Shown here in pieces: positions 20,091 through 32,787 of a DNA stretch of 32,787 nucleotides. This DNA comes from an uncultured Alphaproteobacteria bacterium (GTDB lineage Bacteria; Pseudomonadota; Alphaproteobacteria; Rhizobiales; Beijerinckiaceae). The notes under the pieces are model-generated. The model searched no databases. It was not told the origin of the DNA and saw only the letters and a list, made by a program, of their open reading frames with translations. The position numbers and the translations under genes are program-made. Numbering within the stretch: position 1 is the first letter of the stretch; every line of letters begins with the position of its first letter. The stretch spans positions 1-32,787 of the forward strand of contig CALMOK010000095.1 in assembly GCA_937871825.1 (NCBI GenBank). The letters are read 5' to 3'.

Positions 20091-21614
20091 TCAGGAGGCG
20101 CGCCGGAGCGACGTCCTGTCCCCATCGAGCGCGTCGGCCGCGATCCAGCCGGACATCATCACCATCGGCATGCCGGGGCCGGGATGGGCCGCCCCGCCGG
20201 CGAGATAGAGCCCCTTGACCTGACGCGAGCGATTGCCGGGCTTGAACGCACCAAGGTATTTGCCGTGGCTCGCCAGACCATAGATGGCACCGTTTAGCAC
20301 CTTGTAGCGGTCGTGGATGTCTTGCGGGGTGAGCGCCCGCTCGACCACGATGCGGCTTTCGATGTCGGCCATGCCGGCGGTGCGCTTCAGCTTGTCGAGG
20401 ATCACCTTGCGGTAGGCGGGGAACATCGTCTTCCAGTCGTGGTGCGGTCGCAGGTAGGGCGTGTGGACCAGCACGTAAAGCGCCTCGCCCCCCGCCGGGG
20501 CGACGCCCGGATCGGTGCGGGCCGGCGCCGCGATGTAGCAGGTGGGGTCCGGCGCGGGTTCGCCCTTGTTGTAGATCCAGTCGAACTCCTCGTGGGCGCT
20601 GCGCGAAAACACGAAATCATGGTGCAGGAGGTGCTCGTAACCACGCGACAGCCCGAGGTACAGGACCACGCCTGAGCAGGCCGGCTTGAACTTGTCCTTG
20701 TAGACCTCGCCCGTGGGGCCGCCCACCAATTCTGTGTAGGTGCGGATGGCGTCCATGTTGGAGACCACGGCGGACACGGGGTAGCGCTCCCCTTTGGCGG
20801 TCTTGACGGCCTCGACGGCGCCATTCTGGACGTCAAGACCCGTCACGTCCGTTTCGGGCCTCAACGTCACGCCGAGCCGGCCACACAGGCCCAGCAAGGC
20901 TTCGGCAACAGCCCGCGTGCCACCGACCGGATACCACACGCCGCCACTCGCCTGCATGTGGGCGATGGCGCAGAGCACGGCCGGCGAGGCATAGGGCGAG
21001 GAGCCGACGTATTGGGTGAAATGGTCCAGCATCTGGGCCACGCGCTCGTCCGGCACATGGCCGCGCACGCTTGACGCCACCGAGCGGCCCATGCGGAGCG
21101 ACAACACGTCCCGCAGGGTGCTGGGGCTCATGTTGCGCTTGAAATCCATCGTGTCGCGCAGGTCCTCGACGGATTTCCAGAAAAAGAACCGCTCCGACAC
21201 CCCATGCAGGTTCTCAGCGAATTTCTGAAACGCCGCATAGCCCTTGCCGATGTCCTTGCCGGGCGCGAACCCGTCGAGGGTCGACGCCATGGCGCCGACA
21301 TCTTCCTGCAAGTCGAGCGTCGCCCCGTCGTCGAAGAAGCAGCGCCATTGCGGATCGAGGCGGATCATCGGAAGGTGGTCTTCGAGCTTTTCGCCGGCTT
21401 CGGCGAAGATGCGCCGCAGCACGGCCGGCACCGTCAGGATGGTCGGCCCCATGTCGAAGCGGAAGCCGCCTTCCTCGAAGACCGCCGCCTTGCCGCCGAA
21501 CCAGGGGTTCTTGTCGAACAGCGTCACGCGATGGCCGCGCGCGCCCAGGACGGCAGCCGCCGCGAGGCCGCCGAGACCGCTGCCGATCACCGCAACGGGA
21601 GAAGTGGTTGTCAT
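20091..21614 (-). CDS. crtP: Diapocarotenoid oxidase, CrtP-like (phytoene desaturase superfamily)
   Basis: 507 residues. FAD-binding GSGLGG at 11-16, then GFRFDMGPTILTVP. Long stretches follow S. aureus CrtP more closely than CrtN: PQWRCFFDDGATLDL, FTQYVGSSPYASPAVL, HMQASGGVWYPVGG, NGAIYG, and the C-terminal GGAAHPGPGMPMVMMSGW. CrtP oxidises terminal methyl groups of the C30 polyene to the aldehyde; the aldehyde dehydrogenase of the same operon would finish to the acid. Lies 12 bases after crtN and one base before the acyltransferase gene. Assignment of CrtP versus CrtN is by recalled sequence comparison and needs a tree. Confidence 0.88.
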   Translation of the reverse strand: MTTTSPVAVIGSGLGGLAAAAVLGARGHRVTLFDKNPWFGGKAAVFEEGGFRFDMGPTILTVPAVLRRIFAEAGEKLEDHLPMIRLDPQWRCFFDDGATLDLQEDVGAMASTLDGFAPGKDIGKGYAAFQKFAENLHGVSERFFFWKSVEDLRDTMDFKRNMSPSTLRDVLSLRMGRSVASSVRGHVPDERVAQMLDHFTQYVGSSPYASPAVLCAIAHMQASGGVWYPVGGTRAVAEALLGLCGRLGVTLRPETDVTGLDVQNGAVEAVKTAKGERYPVSAVVSNMDAIRTYTELVGGPTGEVYKDKFKPACSGVVLYLGLSRGYEHLLHHDFVFSRSAHEEFDWIYNKGEPAPDPTCYIAAPARTDPGVAPAGGEALYVLVHTPYLRPHHDWKTMFPAYRKVILDKLKRTAGMADIESRIVVERALTPQDIHDRYKVLNGAIYGLASHGKYLGAFKPGNRSRQVKGLYLAGGAAHPGPGMPMVMMSGWIAADALDGDRTSLRRAS

Positions 21615-21626
21615 GGCACGCCTTGC

Positions 21627-23183
21627 TTAAACCGGGGTGGTGGATGCCAGGGGCATCTCATCCTTGTAGGAAGGGATCGTGTGGCCGAGCCCGAGGTCTT
21701 CGAGCACGAGGTCGCTTGTGATGCGCGCGCCCTCGTAGATGACCGGCAGGCCCGACCCTGGATGCGTGCCGCCGCCCACGAGGTAGACGCCGTCCACCCC
21801 TTCAAACTTGTTGCGTGGGCGAAACAGCAGCATCTGGTCGAGAGAATGGGCGAGGTTGAACGTCGCCCCCCGGTAGATCGCCATATCGTCCCGCCAATCG
21901 TCCGGCGTCACGACTTTCTCGTAGCGGATGCGCTTCCGCAGGTCCGTGAAGCCGAACTTTTCCAGCCGGTCGATCACGATGTCGCGGAACTTCGTCTTTT
22001 CGATTGCCCAGTCGATCTTGCCGCAATGGCCGACCGGCACCAGGACGTAGATCGACGAGCCGCCCGGCCCATCGAAAGCGGGATCAGAACGCGACGGGTT
22101 CTGCACGTAGATCGACGGATCGATTGGTGGGTGCTCGGCCGCCTCGATCTCGGCGACGTTGCGGCGATATTCCTTGCTGAGTACGATGGTATGGTGATCG
22201 AGGTGCTCGTAGCGGCCCTCGATGCCGAGGTAGAGCATGAAGGTCGAGCAGGAATAATTGGACTTCTCGATCTTCTTGTCGGACCAGCGGCGGCGCAGCC
22301 GCGCCGGGATCAGGCGGGGAATGGCATGGGCGAAGTCGCCGTTGACCACCACGGCGTCGGCCGCGAACAAACCTTCGCTCGTCCGCACCCCGGTGGCGGT
22401 CCGGCCGTCGAACTCGATGGCCTCGACATCCTCGTTCATCCTGAACGTGACGCCGAGTTGCCGGGCCGCCTCGGCCATCCCATCACTGAGAGCACCGCAC
22501 CCGCCCATCGGATGCCACACCCCGAACTCGTATTCGAGGAAGGACAAGATGGTGAACAGGCTCGGGCAGCGGAACGGCGACATGCCGAGGTATTTTGTCT
22601 GAAACGAGAAGGCCAGCCGGATACGCGGGTCACGGAACAACTGGCCGAGGTCGCCATCCACCGAGGACATCGGCGAAAGATAACGCAACGACTTCAGAAC
22701 ATCTGGTGAAAGCAGGTCAAGCGGCCCGAGGAAAGGCTTCTGCAGCACGGGCCTGAACGCCGCCAGCTTGCTGCGTCCCCGCTCGATGAACCGCCTGATG
22801 TTCTTGGCGTCGGCAGGGTCGATCTTGGCGATCTCGACCTCGAGCTGGTCGAGATCGCTGGTTGTCACGAGTTCCGGGCCGTCCTCGAAGATCAGGCGAT
22901 AATGCGGATCGAGGCGCTTCAGGGTGACAAAATCGTCGAGGTCGAGTCCACAGCGATGGAAAAGGCTTTGCAGGATTTGCGGGTACAAGAAGAAGGTCGG
23001 CCCGATGTCGAAACGGTAACCCTCCGCTTCCACCACCCGGGTCCGGCCCCCCACCGCACCGAGGCGCTCGAACACCGTGACGTCCACGCCTGCGGCTGCC
23101 AGCAAAAGCGCCGAAGCAAGCCCTCCAGGGCCCGCGCCGACGATCGCAGTCTTCTTTCGGCGCTCGATCTTTCCAAAGTTCAT
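21627..23183 (-). CDS. crtN: Diapophytoene/squalene desaturase, CrtN-like
   Basis: 518 residues. FAD-binding GAGPGG at 16-21, GYRFDIGPTFFLYP, and a C-terminal GGGTHPGSGLPVIYEG. Segments FQTKYLGMSPFRCPSLFTIL, FGVWHPMGG, SNYSCSTFMLYLGIEG, HTIVLSKEYRRN and DPSIYVQNPSRSDPAF follow S. aureus CrtN (FQTLYIGIDP..., LDYSCSAFLMYIGI, DPSIYVYVP). It would introduce the conjugated double bonds into a C30 precursor, probably in association with the membrane. First gene of the operon, with a 185-base leader region. The ribosome site before ATG 23183 is weak. Confidence 0.9.
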   Translation of the reverse strand: MNFGKIERRKKTAIVGAGPGGLASALLLAAAGVDVTVFERLGAVGGRTRVVEAEGYRFDIGPTFFLYPQILQSLFHRCGLDLDDFVTLKRLDPHYRLIFEDGPELVTTSDLDQLEVEIAKIDPADAKNIRRFIERGRSKLAAFRPVLQKPFLGPLDLLSPDVLKSLRYLSPMSSVDGDLGQLFRDPRIRLAFSFQTKYLGMSPFRCPSLFTILSFLEYEFGVWHPMGGCGALSDGMAEAARQLGVTFRMNEDVEAIEFDGRTATGVRTSEGLFAADAVVVNGDFAHAIPRLIPARLRRRWSDKKIEKSNYSCSTFMLYLGIEGRYEHLDHHTIVLSKEYRRNVAEIEAAEHPPIDPSIYVQNPSRSDPAFDGPGGSSIYVLVPVGHCGKIDWAIEKTKFRDIVIDRLEKFGFTDLRKRIRYEKVVTPDDWRDDMAIYRGATFNLAHSLDQMLLFRPRNKFEGVDGVYLVGGGTHPGSGLPVIYEGARITSDLVLEDLGLGHTIPSYKDEMPLASTTPV

Positions 23184-23360: not shown

Positions 23361-23383
23361 GGGCTGGCCTACTGGGTCAGCCC
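23361..23383 (-). terminator. Imperfect hairpin at the end of the ABC importer operon
   Basis: GGGCTG...CAGCCC arms with inner CC/GG pairs and one mismatch around the loop, spanning the stop codon of the binding-protein gene. The T-run is poor. It lies between the importer operon and the crtN promoter region. Confidence 0.35.
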
Positions 23384-24361
23384 CGCCTTCTCGGACACCG
23401 CGTGGGTCCAGGCGCCCTGCGGTTCCTTTGTGATCACCGGATCGGAGCCGGCCGACAACAGGATTTTGACGGTCCGCTCGTAATCGGCGGGATCCAGCGC
23501 GCCGCCGGTGCCCTGCGTCAACAAGTTGACCTCGTCGATCATGTGCTTTTGGTGCACCTCGGTCTGTGCCCCGGATGGATCGTTGTCGAGAACGATCTTG
23601 ACCGTCTCGTCCGGGTGCTGGCGGGCATAGTCCCACCCTTTCATCGAGGCTTTCACGAAGCGGGCCATCTTGTCCACGAAAGCCGGGTCCTTCAGCTTGC
23701 CCTCAAGCGCGTAAAGCCCGTCCTCCACCGTGGCGACGCCCTGGTCGGTGTAGTTGAAGACCACCAGCTGCTCGGGCTTCATCCCGGATTCAAGCACCTG
23801 CCAATATTCGTTGTAGGTCATGGTGGAAATGCAGGCCGCCTGCTTTTGCAGCAACGGGTCGACGTTGAACCCCTGCTTCAGCACCGTCACGCCGCTGGGC
23901 GAGCCGTCCGTCTTCACCCCGAGCTTCGCCATCCAGGCCAGGAACGGGTATTCGTTGCCGGCGAACCAGACGCCGAGCGTGTGGCCGGGGAAGTTTTCGG
24001 GCGTCTTGATGCCGGAATCAGCCCGGCAGGTGAGCTGGAGGCCGGACCGCTTGAACGGCTGGGCGATGTTGACGACGGGCGAGCCCTTTTCGCGCGTGGC
24101 AAGGGCCGAGGGCATCCAATCCACCACCACGTCGGCGCCCCCGCCCGCCAGAACCTGCTGAGGGTTGATGTCCGGGCCGCCCGGCTTGATGGTCACGTCA
24201 AGGCCGGCGTCCTTGTAGAAGCCCTTGTCCTTGGCGACGTAGTAGCCGCCGAACTGAGCGTCGGCGACCCACTTCAACTGCAGCGAGACGGCATCCGCCG
24301 CCTGCGCGGCGCCGGCCGCCCCCGATGCCACCAGGGCCAAACCGCAAAGCCAATGTTTCAT
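23369..24361 (-). CDS. ABC importer substrate-binding protein (NMT1/THI5-like)
   Basis: 330 residues. Signal peptide of about 21 residues (MKHWLCGLALVASGAAGAAQA). The mature start VSLQLKWVADAQFGGYYVAKDKGFYKDAGLDV and IKPGGPDINPQQVLAGGGADV are typical of the NMT1/THI5-like family that includes binders of thiamine-precursor pyrimidine (ThiY) and riboflavin (RibY). The KPGGPDI and QFGGYYVA pieces resemble RibY, but I cannot fix the ligand, and no TPP or FMN riboswitch is evident upstream. ATG 24361 has AAGGAA seven bases before it. Last gene of the operon, 23 bases after the second permease. Confidence 0.85.
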   Translation of the reverse strand: MKHWLCGLALVASGAAGAAQAADAVSLQLKWVADAQFGGYYVAKDKGFYKDAGLDVTIKPGGPDINPQQVLAGGGADVVVDWMPSALATREKGSPVVNIAQPFKRSGLQLTCRADSGIKTPENFPGHTLGVWFAGNEYPFLAWMAKLGVKTDGSPSGVTVLKQGFNVDPLLQKQAACISTMTYNEYWQVLESGMKPEQLVVFNYTDQGVATVEDGLYALEGKLKDPAFVDKMARFVKASMKGWDYARQHPDETVKIVLDNDPSGAQTEVHQKHMIDEVNLLTQGTGGALDPADYERTVKILLSAGSDPVITKEPQGAWTHAVSEKAGLTQ

Positions 24362-24384
24362 GCTAGTTCCTTCTTGCAATCGGT

Positions 24385-25271
24385 TTATCGGGCCCGGCGC
24401 CGAAACGACGGATGCCAGAACGTGACGCGGCGTTCAGCCAGAACGATGCCGCCGTAAAGCACGGAGCCGGTGAGCGCCGCGACCGCGATGGTGGCCCACA
24501 CCATGTCGATGTTCATGCGGCCCACCTCGGCGTTGATGCGGAAGCCCATTCCGACGATGGGCGTGCCGAAGAATTCGGCGACGATCGCGCCGACCAGGGC
24601 CAGCGTGGTGTTGATTTTCAAGCCGTTGAAGATGAAGGGAAGGGCCGCCGGAACGCGCAGCTTGCGCAGGGTCGTTCCGTAGGAGGCCGCGTAGGTGCTC
24701 ATCAAGTCGCGGTCGATCTGGCTGCTCGACGCCAGCCCGGCGTTACAGTTCACCAGCATGGGAAAGAACGTCATGACGGTGACGACGGCGGCCTTGGACG
24801 GCCAGTCGAAGCCGAACCACATGACCATGATGGGTGCGATTCCGACGATCGGCAGGGCGGAGATCAGGGTGCCGAGGGGCAGCAGGCCGCGCTGCAGGAA
24901 GGGCACGCGGTCGATCAGGATCGCCACAAGCAGCCCGACGTCGAGCCGACGAGATAGCCGACCGCCAAGCCCTTGCCGGTCTGCAGGAGGTCGGCCGCCA
25001 GGATCCCCGGCGATGTCAGGATGCGGGCGGCGATGGCCGAGGGTGGCGGCAGGATCACGCCCGGCAGATGCAACCCGCGCACCGCCATCTCCCACCAGAA
25101 CAGGAGCGTGGCGCCGAAGACGAGGGGGATGGCGAGGGCGCAGGCCCGGCCGGCAACGCCGCTGCGCGGCGCCTTGGCGACGAGAAGTTCGACGGCCGCC
25201 CAGGCCAGCAACCAGACGAGCACGCAGCCCATCCAGTAGGACACGCCGGCAATGGGCGGCCCCTCGCTCAT
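24385..25271 (-). pseudogene. ABC importer permease 2, frame-disrupted
   Basis: Inner-membrane permease (BPD_transp_1 family). The true start is ATG 25271, overlapping the permease 1 stop (ATGA) and preceded by GAGGAGGTGG. It reads SEGPPIAGVSYWMGCVLVWL through GKGLAVGYLVGSTSG, then hits a stop soon after. The rest (LLVAILIDRVPFLQRGLLPLG, then the EAA-type cytoplasmic loop and C-terminal helices) continues in another frame to 24385. The break is at about 24934-24936, in a short G run on the minus strand, and one added G would restore SG-LLVAILIDRV and a ~295-residue protein. The whole interval is 887 bases, one short of a multiple of three. It could be a real mutation or a sequencing error. 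Confidence 0.75.
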
Positions 25272-26215
25272 CGCCCACCTCCTCGCGCGCTCAAGCCGCG
25301 CTCGACCGCGCCCACCAGGCCGACCAGGACGGCCCCGCAAACCGCCGCAACCAGAAGCGCCGCCCAGATCTGGATCGTTTGCCCGTAATAGGAACCGGCC
25401 AGCAGCCGCGCCCCCAGGCCACCATCCTCGCTCTTCGTTACTTCCGCCACGATGGTGCCCACGAGGCTGGCGGCGACGCCGACCTTGAGGCTGGCGAAGA
25501 GCATGGGGCGGCTCGCCGGCAGGCGCAGCTTGACCAGGGTCTGCGCCGTCGAGGCCGAGTAGGTCCTCAGAAGGTCGTGCTGGAGCGGCTCGGCCGACCG
25601 AAGGCCCTTGACCATGCCGACCGTGACGGGAAAGAACGACAGGTAGGCGGCAATGATGGCTTTGGGCAGCAGGCCGGTGACGGCGACCTGATTGAGCAGC
25701 ACCACGATCATCGGCGCGAGGGCGACGACCGGCACCGTCTGCGAGGCGACGATCCAGGGCATCATGCCCCGGTCGAGGCTCGGCACGTGGACAACCAGCA
25801 AGCTGAGGACGAAGCCGAACAAGGAGCCCAGCACGAAGCCGAACAGCGTCGCCTCGAGCGTCACGCGCGCGTGGAACAGCAGGCTGCGCTTGGAGGTCGC
25901 CGGCAGGCCGAAAACCGTCTTGCCGATCTCGGCGGCGATCTGATGCGGTGCCGGCAACCTTGGGCGTTCCTGCGACCAAGTGCCGAGCATGAAGTCCCTC
26001 GCCGTATAGCGCGTTCCGGCGTTGCTGAAGGCGTCGCGCTGCAGGTCCGCGTTCATGCCGACAGCCGCCGCGTACCACAGCGCGAGGATGCATCCGACGA
26101 CGACAAGCACCGGTATCGCGTGCCCGCCCACCAAGCGGGCGACGGTAAGGGACGGCACCGGTGAGCGCCGTCCGCCCCGCCCGGCTGTTTGGAGCGGCTG
26201 GGCCTCAGTCGACAT
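25268..26215 (-). CDS. ABC importer permease 1
   Basis: 315 residues, BPD_transp_1 family inner-membrane permease. One N-terminal helix (~30-50), a periplasmic stretch of about 60 residues, then about five helices. The cytoplasmic coupling loop DLLRTYSASTAQTLVKLRLPASRP corresponds to the EAA motif that docks on the ATPase. It overlaps the ATPase gene by 11 bases at its 5' end and permease 2 by 4 bases at its 3' end. Two different permeases in one operon suggest a heterodimeric channel. Confidence 0.9.
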   Translation of the reverse strand: MSTEAQPLQTAGRGGRRSPVPSLTVARLVGGHAIPVLVVVGCILALWYAAAVGMNADLQRDAFSNAGTRYTARDFMLGTWSQERPRLPAPHQIAAEIGKTVFGLPATSKRSLLFHARVTLEATLFGFVLGSLFGFVLSLLVVHVPSLDRGMMPWIVASQTVPVVALAPMIVVLLNQVAVTGLLPKAIIAAYLSFFPVTVGMVKGLRSAEPLQHDLLRTYSASTAQTLVKLRLPASRPMLFASLKVGVAASLVGTIVAEVTKSEDGGLGARLLAGSYYGQTIQIWAALLVAAVCGAVLVGLVGAVERGLSARGGGR

Positions 26216-27035
26216 AGGAGTGCCCCGCCCGCAAACCTTCCCGCACCCGGTGGGCGACCGCCAGGAAGGCCGGCGTTTCCCGGATATCGAGCGTCCTGCC
26301 GCGATCGAGGTCGCAATCCACGATATCGTGCACGCGTCCGGGGCGGGGCGACATGACGACGATACGGGTCGACAGGAACACCGCCTCGGGGATGGAGTGG
26401 GTGACGAACACCACCGTTTTGCCGGTGCGGCGCCATAGGTCGAGCAGTTGCGCGTTGAGCTTGTCGCGCACGATCTCGTCGAGCGCCCCGAACGGCTCGT
26501 CCATCAGCAGGAGGTCCGGGTCGAACGACAAGGCCCGGGCGATCGAAGCGCGCTGCTGCATGCCGCCCGACAGCTGCCAGGGGAACTTGTTCTCGAAACC
26601 ATCGAGGTTGACGAGGCCGAGGCCCGCCTTGACGCGCGCCGCCCGTTCACCTTTCGCAACACCCATGATTTCCAGCGGCAGGGCGATGTTGCGGCCGACC
26701 GTGCGCCAGGGGTAAAGGGCGGGCGCCTGGAAAACATAGCCGTAGTGGCGGGATCGGCGGGCCTGTTCCGGGCTGACGCCGTTCACGGCGACGTGGCCGT
26801 CCGTGGCGGTCTCAAGGTCGGCGATGACCCGCAGCAGGGTCGTCTTCCCGCAGCCCGATGGCCCGATCAGAGAAACGAACTCCCCCTGCCGGATCGACAA
26901 GGACACATGCGACAAAGCCTGAACAACGCCGTCCGCCGTTTCAAACGCCAACGAAACATCATCGATTTCAACAACCGGCGACTGTCCGTCCCGCGTCGAA
27001 GCGGAGCCCGTGGCCAAAGGCGTTGTCAGGCCCAT
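26205..27035 (-). CDS. ABC importer ATP-binding protein
   Basis: About 276 residues of the nitrate/sulfonate/taurine-type (SsuB/TauB) branch. Walker A GPSGCGKTT (~58-66), Q-loop Gln in YVFQAP (~103), signature LSGGMQQR (~155-162), Walker B LLLMDEPFGALD (~175-186), switch His in VTHS (~213). Energises the two permeases that follow. ATG 27035 (MGLTTPLATG) is the chosen start, but no good ribosome site precedes it and the frame is open to TTG 27110, so the 5' end is uncertain. First gene of the operon. Confidence 0.9.
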   Translation of the reverse strand: MGLTTPLATGSASTRDGQSPVVEIDDVSLAFETADGVVQALSHVSLSIRQGEFVSLIGPSGCGKTTLLRVIADLETATDGHVAVNGVSPEQARRSRHYGYVFQAPALYPWRTVGRNIALPLEIMGVAKGERAARVKAGLGLVNLDGFENKFPWQLSGGMQQRASIARALSFDPDLLLMDEPFGALDEIVRDKLNAQLLDLWRRTGKTVVFVTHSIPEAVFLSTRIVVMSPRPGRVHDIVDCDLDRGRTLDIRETPAFLAVAHRVREGLRAGHSYVD

Positions 27036-27275
27036 GCCGGCGCGAACGGAAAGCGAGTCGGTCGGTCGCTGGGCCACAATCGCCAGCGTCTCTGAAAACC
27101 GGCACGACAATCGAGCATTTCACCCCCGGCGGGCCGCGAACCAGCCCATTGAGCGAGCCTGTTCGATACCTCGAAATTTTCACCTCCGTTGACGGCTGAA
27201 CAGTTCAAGCCGACAAGATCGGTATCCGACTCATGAGCATCCGATCACCCCTGGCGGGATCCCCGTCGACGGCCA

Positions 27276-27316: not shown

Positions 27317-27745
27317 TCACTTCGTGATGAACGTCCGCTGAAAACCATCCACGATGGTGTCGTGGAACTTGGCCAGCCAGCCCTCGGCTTCCTTGGCGCG
27401 CCCTTCGGCTGCCTCGGCCCGTCGTTCCGTCGCCATCAGGCGGGCTTCTAGGCCCCGCATCTGCTCGCCATGGTGAACAACCAGTTGCTGATGATACTCC
27501 TCGGCGGCGGCTGCCCGTTCCTCGGCGATTCGGATGGCCTCGAAAGCCTCGTTGACGAGGTCAAGCGCGGACGACCAATCGCGCTTGGGCGAGTTCCGGT
27601 CACCGGTCAGCGCCGTCAAGGGCGCCACTCGCTCCTTGAACGACGGCGAGAACTTCAGCACGCGCTCCGGATTTTCCGGCCCGTCCACGAATTCCTGCAG
27701 ATCGCCGGCGGCTTTGACATCCGGCTTGAGTGTCGATGCTTCCAT
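27317..27745 (-). CDS. Small coiled-coil protein, cluster member A
   Basis: 142 residues, no signal peptide or membrane helix, so cytoplasmic. A low-complexity N-terminal third (residues ~1-60) is followed by KRDWSSALDLVNEAFEAI and a heptad-like Ala/Glu/Arg-rich helix, ending in LAKFHDTIVDGFQRTFITK. The entry motif (D-W-x-x-A-x-D-L-V) and exit motif (FHDTIVDGF) recur in diverged form in the proteins at 29486, 30326 and 30853. ATG 27745 has GGAG seven bases upstream, preferred over GTG 27778. Last gene of a possible minus-strand unit with 29486 and 27886. Function unknown. Confidence 0.75.
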   Translation of the reverse strand: MEASTLKPDVKAAGDLQEFVDGPENPERVLKFSPSFKERVAPLTALTGDRNSPKRDWSSALDLVNEAFEAIRIAEERAAAAEEYHQQLVVHHGEQMRGLEARLMATERRAEAAEGRAKEAEGWLAKFHDTIVDGFQRTFITK

Positions 27746-27885
27746 GGCCCCACTCCCAAAACTTACCAAGTTGTACACCCATTCTGTGATTCGGCGTCAG
27801 TAAGAATCGCCTAAATCATCAGTTCCGGCATCCCGCTTGTGGATCATGGCGGACAACGGCCATGACGACCCGTGGTCGCGCCAGC

Positions 27886-29355
27886 TCACTCCGACCGGTC
27901 CGTTCCCTTGAAGACGTGGACATTGTCGGGCGGCTCCGCTTGGCCGAAAATATCCTCCTCCGGCACGCCATCGGCGGCCTTGGCTCCCGATGCGGCATAT
28001 TGGCGCTTAAAGGCGGTGTATTGTGAGAGCAGCTTGGTCCGACTGCTCCGGGCGATGTCCAGCGCGCCTTGGGCGAGGGACCGCTCGGCCCTTTCGCTCT
28101 GCAGTTCTTCGATCAGGCGACGGTTGGTCAACTCGAACGATGTGCGTTCCTGCTGGAAGCGCTCGTTCATCTGGTCGATCCGCTCGGCGAGGTTGACGGC
28201 CTTGCGGTTGCCGCTTTCGAGTGCCGAATCCTTGGCGCTCAAGGCCTTGGCGAGCATTTCGCAACGCTCTTTCAGTTCGGTCACCAAGCGCTGACCGTCG
28301 CTGATCTGGATCGCCTGGCGCCCGAAAGCCTCCTGGGCGGTTTCGGCGCGGCGTTCCGCGGCGACCTTCTCGGCGAGGATGTCCTTGAGGGTCCGCTCGG
28401 AAATCCGCAGCGCCTCCGACCGGTCCCGCAACTGGTCCCGCAAGTTGGCCAGCATCTTGTCATTCGTCGTCACGTGGGCGTTGAGGCCCTCGATCTTCAT
28501 CGCCAGCGACTGGATCTCGGCGTCCTGCGCGGTTCGTTCGACTTCGCGGTTGGTTTCGAACTTCTGCCGGGCGGCCTGTTCGGCGGCGAGCTTGATCTGG
28601 AGGATCGACACTTCCTGCCGGCCCGCCTGGATCTGCGGTTCGAGCTCGATGATCTGGCCCTTGAAGGCGGCGACCCGCTGCGAATAGCTTTCGGCCAACT
28701 GCTGCAACCGGGCGTTCTCGGTACTGGCGGTTGCGTTCAATTGACGGGTTTCAGCAAGGTCCGCTTCCGCCCGGGACTTGAACTGTTCCAGGCCATCGAT
28801 GTCGGCTCGCAACGCCTGGTTGTCGTCCGACACGGCCCGGGCGCGTTCCGTTTCGGAGGCGAGCTGCCGTTCCAGGTTGTCGATCGAGGCGTGTTGGTCG
28901 TCCAGCCGGAGGCGCTGTTGCGTCAGGTCGGCGTCCTGCTCGCGAAGCAGCTCGTCGCGGGAGCGAAGTTCCGCCAGGGCGGCGGAAAGGTCGCCGGACA
29001 TTTTTGAAGCGCTTGCCTGGAGTTCGTTCAGCTCGGAACGTGCCGCGAATGAGAGTTCGCGCTCGCGGGACAGCAGGGCTTCCATCTCCAGGAGCTTGGA
29101 CTTGCTTTGGGTGTGCTGAACGATGAATTCGTTCAACGGCTCGATCACCGCACCGAAATCGTCCGCCAGACTTTTCAGATCATCCAGCCGGCCCGATAGG
29201 TGGACGACACGTTCTCGGACGTGCTCGCTTTGCTGGCCGACCTCGTTGAGAGGACCACGTTCAAGGGCATGGCGAGGTTGCGGCGGCCGGACCTCTTTGG
29301 CCGGCAATGCGAGAACCGGCGGGGCAGGCTTGCCGCCTAGCAGTTTGGTGAACAT
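27886..29355 (-). CDS. Long filament-like coiled-coil protein, cluster member B
   Basis: 489 residues. After a ~30-residue Pro-containing head (MFTKLLGGKPAPPVLALPAK), nearly the whole protein (about residues 45-460) is one continuous coiled coil with regular leucine/hydrophobic heptads, ending in a short acidic tail (PEEDIFGQ... HVFKGTD). No catalytic domain, signal peptide or membrane helix is seen. The layout of short basic head, very long rod and short tail is like crescentin or other bacterial intermediate-filament-like proteins, but coiled coils look alike and homology is not shown. The start could be ATG 29373; no good ribosome site marks either. It lies between two small coiled-coil genes on the same strand, with gaps of 107-130 bases. 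Confidence 0.82.
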   Translation of the reverse strand: MFTKLLGGKPAPPVLALPAKEVRPPQPRHALERGPLNEVGQQSEHVRERVVHLSGRLDDLKSLADDFGAVIEPLNEFIVQHTQSKSKLLEMEALLSRERELSFAARSELNELQASASKMSGDLSAALAELRSRDELLREQDADLTQQRLRLDDQHASIDNLERQLASETERARAVSDDNQALRADIDGLEQFKSRAEADLAETRQLNATASTENARLQQLAESYSQRVAAFKGQIIELEPQIQAGRQEVSILQIKLAAEQAARQKFETNREVERTAQDAEIQSLAMKIEGLNAHVTTNDKMLANLRDQLRDRSEALRISERTLKDILAEKVAAERRAETAQEAFGRQAIQISDGQRLVTELKERCEMLAKALSAKDSALESGNRKAVNLAERIDQMNERFQQERTSFELTNRRLIEELQSERAERSLAQGALDIARSSRTKLLSQYTAFKRQYAASGAKAADGVPEEDIFGQAEPPDNVHVFKGTDRSE

Positions 29356-29485
29356 GGCCCAGGGCGGCTGCATCGTCAGTTCTGCTTCACTTGGAGGCGG
29401 GATCGAATGGCACGGGGGTTCGACCCGTCAGATCCGCGTCGGGGCCGAGGCGCCGAGCCAAAGGCCGAGAGTGCCACCGGACGCG

Positions 29486-30058
29486 TCAACCTTGTAATTC
29501 GTCCGCGCCCGGCTTGGCCACGAAGGCCAAGGCGGCATGGGCCTTCGATCCGGCTCCGAAAGCCGCCACGATCTTGTCGTGGAACAAGGTCGTCAGGTCG
29601 ATCGCCGCACTTGCGTGCTGTTCCGCCGCCATCACGAGTTCCTGCCCGGCCGCAAGCCGCGATTCCGCGACTTTGACGCGCTGCGTCATGTCGGCCAACC
29701 GCCGCTCGCCGTCCTCAAGATGGCTTTTCAAGGTCGACGCCAGGTGCTGCCAGCGCTTCGTTTCGTCTTCGGCGGCATTGACCGAATCCGATGCTTGCCG
29801 TTGCACGGTCCGGATCTCCTCTTCCAACGTCTGGCATCGTTCGCCCATCAGTTGGAACGCATCCGCCACGCGCGCCAAAAGGTCGAAGGCGGCCTCATAA
29901 TCCCGACGCTCCAGCACGGCTTTCGTCGGCATCGCCGATCCGTTGAGTTCCGGAAAGACCTGAAGCATGAAGCCTCCGATATCCGGGACCTTGGCGGGCG
30001 CGAACGCGGCATCCGCGTCCTGAGGATCGATAACGAAAACCTCGTCTCCCTGCGTCAT
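29486..30058 (-). CDS. Small coiled-coil protein, cluster member C
   Basis: About 190 residues from ATG 30058 (GTG 30097 is possible; neither has a strong ribosome site). The N-terminal ~60 residues include VFVIDPQDAD and GGFMLQVFPELNG. RRDYEAAFDLLARVADAF then opens a coiled coil with a conserved Trp (ETKRWQHLAS) and ends in TTLFHDKIVAAFG plus a 25-residue tail. These landmarks match those of members A, D and E in the same order, indicating one family. First gene of the minus-strand arm, divergent from member D. Function unknown. Confidence 0.77.
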   Translation of the reverse strand: MTQGDEVFVIDPQDADAAFAPAKVPDIGGFMLQVFPELNGSAMPTKAVLERRDYEAAFDLLARVADAFQLMGERCQTLEEEIRTVQRQASDSVNAAEDETKRWQHLASTLKSHLEDGERRLADMTQRVKVAESRLAAGQELVMAAEQHASAAIDLTTLFHDKIVAAFGAGSKAHAALAFVAKPGADELQG

Positions 30059-30170
30059 GTGCTCGGCCGCCAACGTCGTTCCCACCCTTTTGGGCACGCT
30101 ACGGAGACTTCGTCACTCCGACAAGGGCCGGACGATGAACTTCGGCGATTCTCCAGAACTCGTTCAGGGT

Positions 30171-30275
30171 TTGGTTACCATCCGGCCGGTCAGCCTCCCG
30201 AATCGTGGGAGGAACCAAGTGAAGGGGATGGAACCAGCTCCGGGCGAGCGACGAGCCGGTAACCAAGTCTTAACC
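30171..30275. promoter_or_regulatory. Divergent control region with inverted and direct repeats
   Basis: The interval between the two arms of the coiled-coil cluster holds a 9-bp inverted pair TTGGTTACC (30171-30179) / GGTAACCAA (30258-30266), a tight hairpin CCTCCC-N7-GGGAGG (30194-30212), a direct repeat GGAACCA (30211-30217 and 30230-30236), and TTAACC (30270-30275), like a CtrA half-site. Such density suggests operators for both arms. No regulator is identified. Confidence 0.45.
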
Positions 30276-30325
30276 ATAAACCATCAATTGTGGACCGATC
30301 AGATCGCGATGTCTTGCGGGGCTTC

Positions 30326-30757
30326 ATGTCCGTTGTCCACCCGGCCCAACCGGTTGCCTTTCCAATTCTCGCGGGCGTCGACCAAGGCCGCGACGCGTCG
30401 GCTCAACCCGAGACGCCGCCGGACCCGAAAACCGTTCTGGACCTGCTGCATCACGCGTCCGATGCCCTGGATCGCATGCAGGCCCGCTGCGCCGAGGTGG
30501 AGGCCGCCGCCCGGGATGTGGCGCTTCGTGGCCAACAGCATATCAACAGCGCCCGTGCCATGAAGGCCGAGTGGCAGGCTCGCGTGGCATCCCAGCAGGC
30601 CCATGTCGACGATCTCGAATGCAGGCTCGCGCTCGCGGACGAGACCGCGATGGAGCTACGAACCCGTCTCATCAGCCTTTACGGCAAGCTGGCCGCCTCG
30701 GTTCTCAACGTCCGCACGCAGCCCCGGCCACCGGCGGTCGCTTCGAAAAACACCTGA
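30326..30757 (+). CDS. Small coiled-coil protein, cluster member D
   Basis: 143 residues from ATG 30326; GTG 30290 in the same frame is an alternative. A ~35-residue variable head is followed by DPKTVLDLLHHASDALDRMQ, a coiled coil with the conserved Trp in MKAEWQARVASQQ and DDLECRLALAD, then RLISLYGKLAASV and a polar tail. The same landmarks in the same order occur in A, C and E. No signal peptide or membrane helix. First gene of the plus-strand arm, followed by member E after 95 bases. Function unknown. Confidence 0.77.
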   Translation: MSVVHPAQPVAFPILAGVDQGRDASAQPETPPDPKTVLDLLHHASDALDRMQARCAEVEAAARDVALRGQQHINSARAMKAEWQARVASQQAHVDDLECRLALADETAMELRTRLISLYGKLAASVLNVRTQPRPPAVASKNT

Positions 30758-30852
30758 AAACCGAGAAGGCCTGCCGCCCCGAAGCGGGCGAAGAACGACA
30801 TGGCCGGTTTGGGCAGCCATCACGATGGTCGCCATCATAACGGGAGAGCACG

Positions 30853-31305
30853 ATGGCCCTTGCGCAGCATTCCTCCAACGCACGGGCGGACGAGCTCTCC
30901 GTCAGGCCGTCGCCGCGTCCCGCAGCACCAAGGATCCGCGACGCCGACCCGGCGACCATCCTCCTTGAAAAGGCCAGCGCCGCGATCAATGGCTTGCGGC
31001 AGCAGCGCATTCGTCTCGACCATGAGGCCCTGGAGCGGCAGAAGCAGTTCGGCGCCCAACTCGCCGCCGCCAACGAGACCTCGACCTTGTGGCAAAGGCG
31101 CGCCGCCATCGTGTCTGAACAGTTTGACGAATCACGGGCCCGATTGGCCGACCTCGAACACATCATCGAATCCGCGACGCGTCGCATCGATCAGGCCGAA
31201 GCCAGCCTGACCCGCTTCGAGCAGACGAGTTATAATGGTAACGCCGCCGTCCACCTCTACCACCACCGCATCTTGACGGTGTTCGGGACACTGGACCTCG
31301 ACTGA
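30853..31305 (+). CDS. Small coiled-coil protein, cluster member E
   Basis: 150 residues. ATG 30853 has GGAGAG just upstream. A short Pro/Arg-rich head is followed by DPATILLEKASAAINGLRQQR, a coiled coil with Trp in TSTLWQRRAAI and SRARLADLEHII, and the C-terminal VHLYHHRILTVFGTLDLD. This closely parallels member D in length and landmark spacing. It ends 175 bases before the stop of the convergent sugar transferase gene. Function unknown. Confidence 0.8.
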   Translation: MALAQHSSNARADELSVRPSPRPAAPRIRDADPATILLEKASAAINGLRQQRIRLDHEALERQKQFGAQLAAANETSTLWQRRAAIVSEQFDESRARLADLEHIIESATRRIDQAEASLTRFEQTSYNGNAAVHLYHHRILTVFGTLDLD

Positions 31306-31480: not shown

Positions 31481-32787
31481 TCAGTAGACGTTCCTCGGCC
31501 TGAAAATCTGCACCACCGTCAACACGATGGCCAGAAGGTCGAGCTTGAGGCTCCAATTCTCGATGTACCACAGGTCGAGCTTGACCCGCTCTTCCATCAT
31601 GGCCAGCGTCGAGGTTTCGCCCCGATAGCCGTTGACCTGGGCCCAACCTGTGATGCCGGGCTTCGCATGGTGGCGCATCGCGTAGGTGGCGATCAGCTTG
31701 TCGTATTCGCTGTCGTGCGAAAGCGCGTGCGGGCGGGGGCCGACAAGTGACATCTCGCCCCTGAGCACGTTGAGCAATTGCGGAAGCTCATCGAGACTGG
31801 TTTTCCGCAGATAGCGTCCCACACGCGTAACCCGGTCGTCGTTCCGCGTGGCTTGTTTGACGGTGTTGCCGTCGTCCAGCGTCGTCATCGACCGGAATTT
31901 GAAGATGCGGAACATGCGGCCGCTGAAACCGGCCCGACGCTGCCTGAACAAGGTCGGGCCAGGGCTGTCGAGCTTGATGGCAAGCGCGATCATGGCGAAG
32001 AAGGGCGCGAGGATGAACAGTCCCGCAAGGCTGAGTGCCACGTCAAGGCTGCGTTTTGTCACCTGCTGCGATGGAGTCAGCGGACCGCATTGCAACTCCA
32101 CCGTCCGTCCCGGCCCGATTCCGGTGATCGGCTTTGACAAGAGCGAACTGACGGCCCGGTCAAGCAAAAGGTGAACGGGAATCGGCACGGTGCGCAGTCC
32201 ACCCGCCACCGCCTTGACCAGGGCTTGCTGGCCGAAGTCGAACGTCAGCAGGATCTCGTCGACCTTGTGCTCCCGGGCGAACTGCCTGGTCTGCTCGACA
32301 AGGGTCGCGATCTCGTCTCTTGGCTCGGCCTCGACCTCGAATTGCGCGACCACATCGTAGCCATGCCGGCCAAGGTGCCCGCCGCCGGTCGATCGGGCCA
32401 AGTGCTGCCGATCCCCGATCAGCACGACGCGACGTCGTCCAGCGAGGCGATTGTTGGCGATCAGTCCCCGGAATGTCCGGTGAGCCAATTCCCTGAGCAG
32501 CGGCAACGCCACCGCGCCGCCCGCAACAAACATCGTGGCGGTTCCACGCGAGATGTTGGGCGACAGGCGGGTCAGGATCGCGACCAGGACGATCGAAGTC
32601 GCGACCGCCAGCCACGTGAAGAAAGCGGCCCGCCTTTGGGACCGCCCCTCGATGATACGCGTCGGCGCGTAAAGGTGCTGCGACTGCATCGCCAGAACGA
32701 AGAGCGAGCCGAACGACAGGCCGATCCCAGCCGCCAAGCCGACGTCACCAATCGGATTGGACGTCGCCAACTGGCACACGACCTCGG
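31481..32787 (-). CDS. Polysaccharide-priming sugar transferase (WcaJ/ExoY type), 5'-truncated
   Basis: About 435 residues, open to the right edge. The C-terminal bacterial sugar-transferase domain is complete: KRSLDVALSLAGLFILAPFF (membrane re-entrant helix), DSPGPTLFRQRRAGFSG, FRIFKFRSM, LRKTSLDELPQLLNVLRGEMSLVGPRP and PGITGWAQVNGYRG. Upstream are a nucleotide-binding-like CoA-fold region (RRRVVLIGDRQHL) and part of the N-terminal membrane block; one or more helices are cut off. The enzyme moves a sugar-1-phosphate (often glucose or galactose) from the nucleotide sugar to undecaprenyl phosphate, the first step of exopolysaccharide or capsule repeat assembly. It probably marks the edge of a polysaccharide locus. 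Confidence 0.93.
   Translation of the reverse strand, partial: EVVCQLATSNPIGDVGLAAGIGLSFGSLFVLAMQSQHLYAPTRIIEGRSQRRAAFFTWLAVATSIVLVAILTRLSPNISRGTATMFVAGGAVALPLLRELAHRTFRGLIANNRLAGRRRVVLIGDRQHLARSTGGGHLGRHGYDVVAQFEVEAEPRDEIATLVEQTRQFAREHKVDEILLTFDFGQQALVKAVAGGLRTVPIPVHLLLDRAVSSLLSKPITGIGPGRTVELQCGPLTPSQQVTKRSLDVALSLAGLFILAPFFAMIALAIKLDSPGPTLFRQRRAGFSGRMFRIFKFRSMTTLDDGNTVKQATRNDDRVTRVGRYLRKTSLDELPQLLNVLRGEMSLVGPRPHALSHDSEYDKLIATYAMRHHAKPGITGWAQVNGYRGETSTLAMMEERVKLDLWYIENWSLKLDLLAIVLTVVQIFRPRNVY

Follow-up and report, generated by a model that had tools for sequence, protein, structure and literature searches.

The contig CALMOK010000095.1 (assembly GCA_937871825.1), whose 32,787 nucleotides are called the window below, comes from an uncultured alphaproteobacterium and carries at positions 27317-31305 a gene for a crescentin-like rod surrounded by four genes for small coiled-coil proteins, here named A, C, D and E. 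We found that the four small proteins belong to one family, that the gene immediately 3' of the crescentin-like one is A in all 41 named loci surveyed outside Microvirga, and that C lies directly 5' of it within the genus of the window genome; both arrangements are new here. We propose, with a probability of about 0.6, that a crescentin-type cytoskeleton module is encoded here together with accessory proteins of its own.

A crescentin-like rod and a family of small coiled-coil proteins

The rod matches the Pfam family PF19220 (Rod_CreS) with 269.4 bits (6.2e-80, against a curated cut-off of 100; 270.6 bits in the genome search), is the sole match to this family in its genome at 1e-3, and runs beyond the domain at both ends. 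Its residues 27-449 align with residues 22-442 of the solved crescentin 8afl (3.8e-10), including a C-terminal part that reads LAQGALDIARSSR in the rod and LAEGALEAARRDR in crescentin. The likeness to Caulobacter crescentus crescentin (CreS) thus lies in a family match over its cut-off and in an alignment that covers most of the rod, although the sequence similarity itself is weak (42.9 bits). The initial annotation had seen a filament-type rod inside the cluster, which the Rod_CreS match bears out, and had known of no described system with such a layout. The latter view was incomplete, since the rod is by sequence comparison a crescentin-like protein, so that the filament is of a described kind.

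Crescentin is needed for the crescent shape of Caulobacter, and its filament structure has been solved (passages of PMC10873595). Residues at the crescentin N-terminus act in membrane association, and the remaining domains in controlled assembly (PMC3087291, in part). Crescentin-like proteins of Hyphomicrobiales, which share their Pfam family and order with the window rod, have been published more recently (PMC12700997, 2025), and in passages of that study the homologue of Chelatococcus reniformis brought curvature back to a C. crescentus creS mutant. FilP and other bacterial intermediate-filament-like or coiled-coil-rich proteins are likewise described as self-assembling coiled-coil cytoskeletal rods, but they are known from other phyla than the window rod. 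As a crescentin-like protein, the window rod is expected to form a stable, membrane-associated filament.

Concerning the small proteins, a profile trained on 16 C-type proteins, with A, D and E left out, detected E and D with the scores given in Table 1 and A with 35.6 bits (3.1e-9), all above the best of 93 crescentin-like rods used as coiled-coil controls in the same database (18.7 bits, 4.7e-4). None of 1000 residue shuffles of A, D or E reached the real score, nor did any of 1000 heptad-phase shuffles of each, and the result was the same (0/1000 for each) when the coiled coil was masked and the entry and exit motifs that flank it were left to carry the signal. In the reverse direction, a profile of A proteins (A5) detected the window C (7e-10), and at 1e-4 it matched not one of the 93 rods. 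Its scores were reached by no shuffle out of 1000 for C and for D (the latter at 14.3 bits), whereas E was marginal (2/1000, or 11/1000 with heptad shuffles). With the coil masked, a weaker test than that of the C-type profile, the figures were 0 for C, 3 for D, 45 for E and 10 of 1000 for F, a further relative in the window genome. From these results A and E are tied through C and not directly. Judged on these profile comparisons, A, C, D and E are nevertheless one real family, above generic coiled-coil similarity, as the initial annotation had suggested from a shared plan of head, entry motif, coil and exit motif.

None of the four small proteins has a match over the curated cut-off in Pfam or NCBIfam, and a search of solved structures with the A profile returned GCN4-tropomyosin alone (0.0083). 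A profile of C, D, E and F (A2) proved less selective, with 18 of the 93 rods at or below 1e-4 and the lowest at 2.7e-6, and A2 matches near 1e-5 were therefore discarded. A match in the window genome at C158:7498 (2e-5 with A2) was not counted, the frame picker having called no small gene there.

The quoted entry motifs KRDWSSALDLV (A) and RRDYEAAFDLL (C) and exit motifs FHDTIVDGF (A), LFHDKIVAAFG (C), LYGKLAASV (D) and LYHHRILTVFG (E) are all present, as is the mid-coil tryptophan of C, D and E (KRWQHLAS, AEWQARVAS, TLWQRRAAI), which follows the entry anchor at a distance of 49 residues in each of them (with hand-set anchors for D and E). Across 42 A proteins the two motifs are the best conserved parts, with a mean entropy of 0.94 bits at the entry and 0.98 at the exit, against 2.42 in the head, 1.72 in the mid coil and 2.80 in the tail. 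AlphaFold2 predicts for A a low-confidence segment at residues 1-66 followed by a single unbroken helix at 68-152 (block means of the predicted local distance difference test score 92-98 over residues 71-150), and for C one long helix at 64-180 behind a head that is mostly of low confidence. The heads of A, C, D and E are variable and probably disordered. Bulky hydrophobic residues of A proteins occupy phases 0 and 4 of seven, as in a regular coiled coil with a 3-4 heptad.

The distance from entry to exit motif differs among the four proteins (Table 1), the automatic anchors for D (88) and E (91) having been replaced by hand-set ones from alignment A2. In 51 of the 53 members with confident anchors this spacing is a multiple of seven (70, 77, 91, 98 or 105 residues), and the two others have 88. 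Such whole-heptad spacing fits one continuous coiled coil with both ends kept in register; it describes the family and is no independent test, the matrices having been trained on these same, mutually related members.

Rod tails and A heads also share a short motif, [DEST][KNR][VI]xx[FL], which occurs in 83 of 116 rod tails and 27 of 51 A heads, compared with 7 of 704 C-termini and 16 of 736 N-termini, respectively, used as controls; it is also present in 3 of 9 other small heads. The tails have the form [ST]NVxPF/L, the A heads forms such as DKVISF, EKVLRF and ERVLKF, and F has DNILRL; a pattern scan found none in the heads of the window C and D, nor was any seen by eye in that of E. The comparison is a hint only, because the pattern was set after the sequences had been seen, the sequences compared are related to one another, and the pattern also fits 72 of 868 windows of the rod itself. 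Taken as it stands, it is compatible with a filament and adaptors that may dock on one common cellular target.

As a separate observation, the heads of C-type paralogues in L111, L112, L115, L118, L119 and L120 carry a short motif of the form xFMxRVF or TLMRRFF; the head of the window C reads GFMLQVF, and AlphaFold2 places a short helix there (residues 40-47).

Gene order and history of the rod-A pair

To survey the gene order, 80 named loci were retrieved with the rod as the only query (the best 80 of 85), with up to 5 kb on each side of it; gene lists came from a simple frame picker based on codon-position G+C rather than a trained gene finder, and unprofiled genes were named by eye. Outside Microvirga, the gene immediately 3' of the rod gene, on the same strand, is A in 41 out of 41 loci, at a median gap of 39 nucleotides by first possible starts (in L199 the contig ends within the A frame). 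At 1e-4 the A profile detects 62 frames in these loci, none of them farther than 3 kb from the rod, the loci reaching at most 5 kb per side. These loci belong to Lichenibacterium, Methylobacterium, Methylorubrum, Aureimonas and Bosea, plus bins assigned to Beijerinckiaceae, Methylobacteriaceae and Hyphomicrobiales.

The small genes near the rod vary in number and type, from A alone to about five, and 15 of the 41 loci have at least two small members by the A profile at 1e-4; the constant pair is the rod and A, not all five proteins. Within the genus of the window genome (G000, 338 contigs), which includes Lichenibacterium minor (G002) and L. ramalinae (G003) and is placed by the NCBI taxonomy in Lichenihabitantaceae, Hyphomicrobiales, C is found directly 5' of the rod in all four rod-bearing genomes (the window genome, G001, G002 and G003), and G004 and G005 gave no rod match. 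A further genome, G342, resembles the window in its layout: one small gene precedes the rod (5') on the same strand, another, divergent, lies farther upstream, and A sits where the contig ends.

In a wider sample from the same GTDB family, the A3 profile matched 35 of 298 genomes at 1e-4, and rods were found in 85 of 298 at 1e-8. In the class sample, where scoring is confined to the few best candidates of each genome (up to 5 and 11 among those listed) and weak members can be missed, the rod at 1e-20 and A at 1e-6 were each found in 1 of 347 genomes, the window's own; the rod family was present over its cut-off in the Caulobacter vibrioides control. In the order sample, the rod was found in 5 of 297 genomes at 1e-15 and A2 matches at 1e-4 in 4 of 297, namely the window genome and three weak matches that were not counted: two fall within proteins of 697 residues with the look of chemoreceptors (by eye), and the third, a 158-residue frame of G021 (7e-6), may be a distant member. 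A scan of named genomes with protein C alone returned 51 stretches matching the pattern, of which none was confirmed.

We followed the history of the pair on two quick trees, one of 55 crescentin-like rods chosen for spread and one of 51 small proteins, with branch support from the Shimodaira-Hasegawa-like approximate likelihood ratio test (SH-aLRT) only and with several long branches in both, those of D and E among them. On the rod tree, the presence of A changes only 3 times, against a mean of 18.5 after shuffling (0/500 as low); the starred branches force 2 changes, and one of the three is due to L207, where A is cut by the contig end and falls below the threshold. The A-bearing rods form one clade together with Microvirga and its genus mates (SH-aLRT 100), a pattern that fits one gain of A with loss in Microvirga, or two gains. 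The rod of Aureimonas (Aurantimonadaceae) branches next to the Methylobacterium group, and Bosea sp. TND4EK4 has its rod within that group, which suggests that rod and A may move together.

On the small-protein tree, the window A clusters with A genes from other genera, whereas C, D and E, like F, fall among further small proteins from their own genus. E and D both have F as their closest row, F being a single copy carried on a different contig of the window genome; the exact place of D and E is unsure because of their long branches. The initial idea of repeated duplication of one family within 4 kb is therefore only partly upheld, given an A line common to other genera and a closest relative of E and D that lies elsewhere. 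Of the two outcomes that the initial annotation had named as fatal to the family idea, no relation in a profile comparison with a coiled-coil control and relatives that never cluster, neither was obtained: relatives surround the rod in other lineages too, and they also occur singly elsewhere.

Some details of these loci deserve mention on their own. F (178 amino acids) lies at L027:6989-7525 on contig C304 and adjoins hflK/hflC-like genes and a DNA-3-methyladenine glycosylase-like gene, all named by eye. At L206:5704-6168 and L242:4411-4875 (genus g158), an A-type gene stands next to an ettA-like ABC-F gene (by eye), with no rod nearby. As to the rods, L208:2551-6715 (G384) has tandem crescentin-like frames of 846 and 514 amino acids, with no small gene nearby. 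In L204:2418-3227 and L205:2317-3120, which represent two g12 genomes, frames of 267-269 amino acids resemble the rod profile (5e-8 and 1.5e-15) just before an A-type frame, with a further coiled-coil frame downstream, and possibly represent a shortened crescentin-like protein. The group g12 also includes G550, which has exactly the same rod as Bosea sp. TND4EK4.

Possible accessory proteins of a crescentin-like filament

The constant gene order, the conserved helix ends and the occurrence of the pair in more than one family lead us to propose that A and C act as accessory proteins of the rod. A, and in this genus C, would be helical proteins encoded in the gene string of the rod and probably co-transcribed with it. 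Their design would consist of a flexible head followed by a single long coiled-coil helix with conserved docking motifs at both ends, which length changes of heptad size would hold in register. The helix might lie on, cap or crosslink the crescentin-like filament, and the head might bind a further partner, so that A would tune the assembly or placement of the filament and possibly affect cell shape. C, D, E and the scattered copies would be paralogues built to one design, differing in length and head, and perhaps in address; D and E, whose role would be conjectural, form the weakest part of the proposal. A more specific version, which we offer tentatively, sees here an unnamed family of dedicated crescentin accessory proteins, with A as the core member that accompanies the crescentin-like gene and heptad-stepped lineage paralogues as length-graded adaptors, in which filament and adaptors may dock through their look-alike short motifs on one cellular target.

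Several observations weigh against this proposal. Gene order does not by itself demonstrate contact. The count of 41 out of 41 was drawn with a rod alignment (A6) in which A-bearing loci supply 9 of the 11 rows, and the sample consequently favors the A-bearing clade. In none of the 39 Microvirga loci is A found beside the rod (L131 ends about 290 nucleotides past it), and 32 further rod loci from the same GTDB family have no small gene near the rod, some on short contigs; A is thus not needed for every crescentin-like protein. In the GTDB-family sample, rod and A stand side by side on one strand in only 16 of 298 genomes (17 with the truncated copy in G342), and A-type genes also occur without an adjoining rod, for instance beside the ettA-like gene. 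Finally, some spacings are not multiples of seven, and weaker anchors range from 56 to 127, including 101 and 108, some of them visibly misplaced.

Part of this evidence could also be read as a shared gene string only, with an independent family of small coiled-coil proteins, such as polar or membrane scaffolds, that has no direct contact with the rod. The stand-alone relatives, like F and the copies beside the ettA-like gene, would agree with it, and so would the 1-7 matches per genome (weak ones included) in 5 of 6 genomes of the genus. We consider it unlikely in view of the adjacency kept in every locus outside Microvirga, including Aureimonas of another family. Quite unlikely, too, is that the small proteins co-polymerize with the rod as structural subunits of a mixed filament, the heteromeric arrangement first imagined for this cluster. 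The clean 3-4 heptad of the A-type proteins, which all fall in one cluster, and the loci of several lineages with at least two small members around the rod would suit such a filament, but the solved Caulobacter filament is described, in the passages at hand, as assembled from crescentin dimers (PMC10873595), Microvirga and other clades have a rod without adjoining small genes, and a structural subunit sits poorly with a set of neighbors so variable in number and type.

Two other explanations carry far less weight. Phage-derived or granule-associated (phasin-like) helical proteins unconnected to shape are highly improbable: a possible phage tape-measure origin of crescentin is raised in part of PMC12700997, and C has one weak tape-measure match (0.0036), but A, D, E and the rod have no PHROGs match at 0.01, and no phasin family is among the Pfam hits listed up to an E-value of 1. 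Generic coiled-coil similarity without any family is barely tenable; the scores that rods reach with A2 do make weak A2 matches meaningless, but the held-out profile with its shuffled and masked controls contradicts this explanation, as do relatives with a fixed gene order.

No dedicated accessory gene of crescentin, nor any partner gene of crescentin-like genes in this order, was found in the open-access literature searched, as far as its accessible passages go, and the passages seen of the crescentin papers mention no accessory gene. The words neighborhood, Methylobacteri and Lichen do not occur in the main text of PMC12700997, and those of its passages on operon, gene cluster and downstream that were seen name no partner gene of creS. 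If the accessory reading is true, A may be an overlooked dedicated partner of a bacterial cytoskeleton. Crescentin is a leading model of bacterial intermediate-filament-like proteins, and in Caulobacter it interacts with CTP synthase. The A-type neighbor in Methylobacterium, Methylorubrum and Aureimonas makes the question of how such filaments are regulated or anchored testable, as well as the reason why many species of the order carry a crescentin-like gene, with Microvirga (rod without A) as a natural comparison.

Layout of the locus and neighboring genes

The cluster comprises five open frames (Table 1). The minus strand carries C, rod and A in this order; D and E lie upstream of C on the opposite, plus strand and run divergently from the C-rod-A string. 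The GTG start of A is probably an over-extension; Met-12, which 40 of the 42 A proteins in the alignment share, is the probable true start. The rod had been given 489 residues, which corresponds to the next methionine after the ATG at 29373, and the start proposed for D at 30326 is an internal in-frame ATG. Promoter and terminator scans at the locus were uninformative.

Table 1. Coordinates of the rod, the small proteins and their short motifs in the window (aa, amino acids; ORF, open reading frame; spacing, residues between entry and exit anchors)
Feature	Position	Strand	Basis and remarks
Small protein A	27317..27778	-	ORF; probable true start ATG 27745, ~142 aa; spacing 70
Crescentin-like (CreS) rod, 495 aa	27886..29373	-	PF19220 Rod_CreS, 269 bits vs cut-off 100
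Small protein C, directly 5' of rod, same strand	29486..30097	-	ORF; spacing 105
Small protein D, divergent	30290..30757	+	Held-out C-type profile 51.8 bits, 3.2e-14; spacing 77 (hand anchors)
Small protein E, divergent	30853..31305	+	Held-out C-type profile 74.0 bits, 4.6e-21; spacing 105 (hand anchors)
ERVLKF, pattern [DEST][KNR][VI]xx[FL], head of A	27650..27667	-	Pattern scan, chosen post hoc
DNVHVF, conserved tail motif of crescentin-like rod	27910..27927	-	N and V invariant in 11/11 aligned rods

Next to E, at the edge of the window (31481-32779, minus strand), lies a gene for an undecaprenyl-phosphate glucose phosphotransferase of the WcaJ type (NCBIfam TIGR03023, over its cut-off). Directly 3' of A (23369-27110, minus strand) is an ATP-binding cassette transporter string made of an ATPase (Pfam), two membrane proteins and a substrate-binding protein that is NMT1/THI5-like by eye. 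Two neighboring phytoene desaturase-like frames (by eye) follow at 20091-23183, also on the minus strand, and past them are acyltransferase-, glycosyltransferase- and aldehyde dehydrogenase-like frames, which together make up a cluster of carotenoid type.

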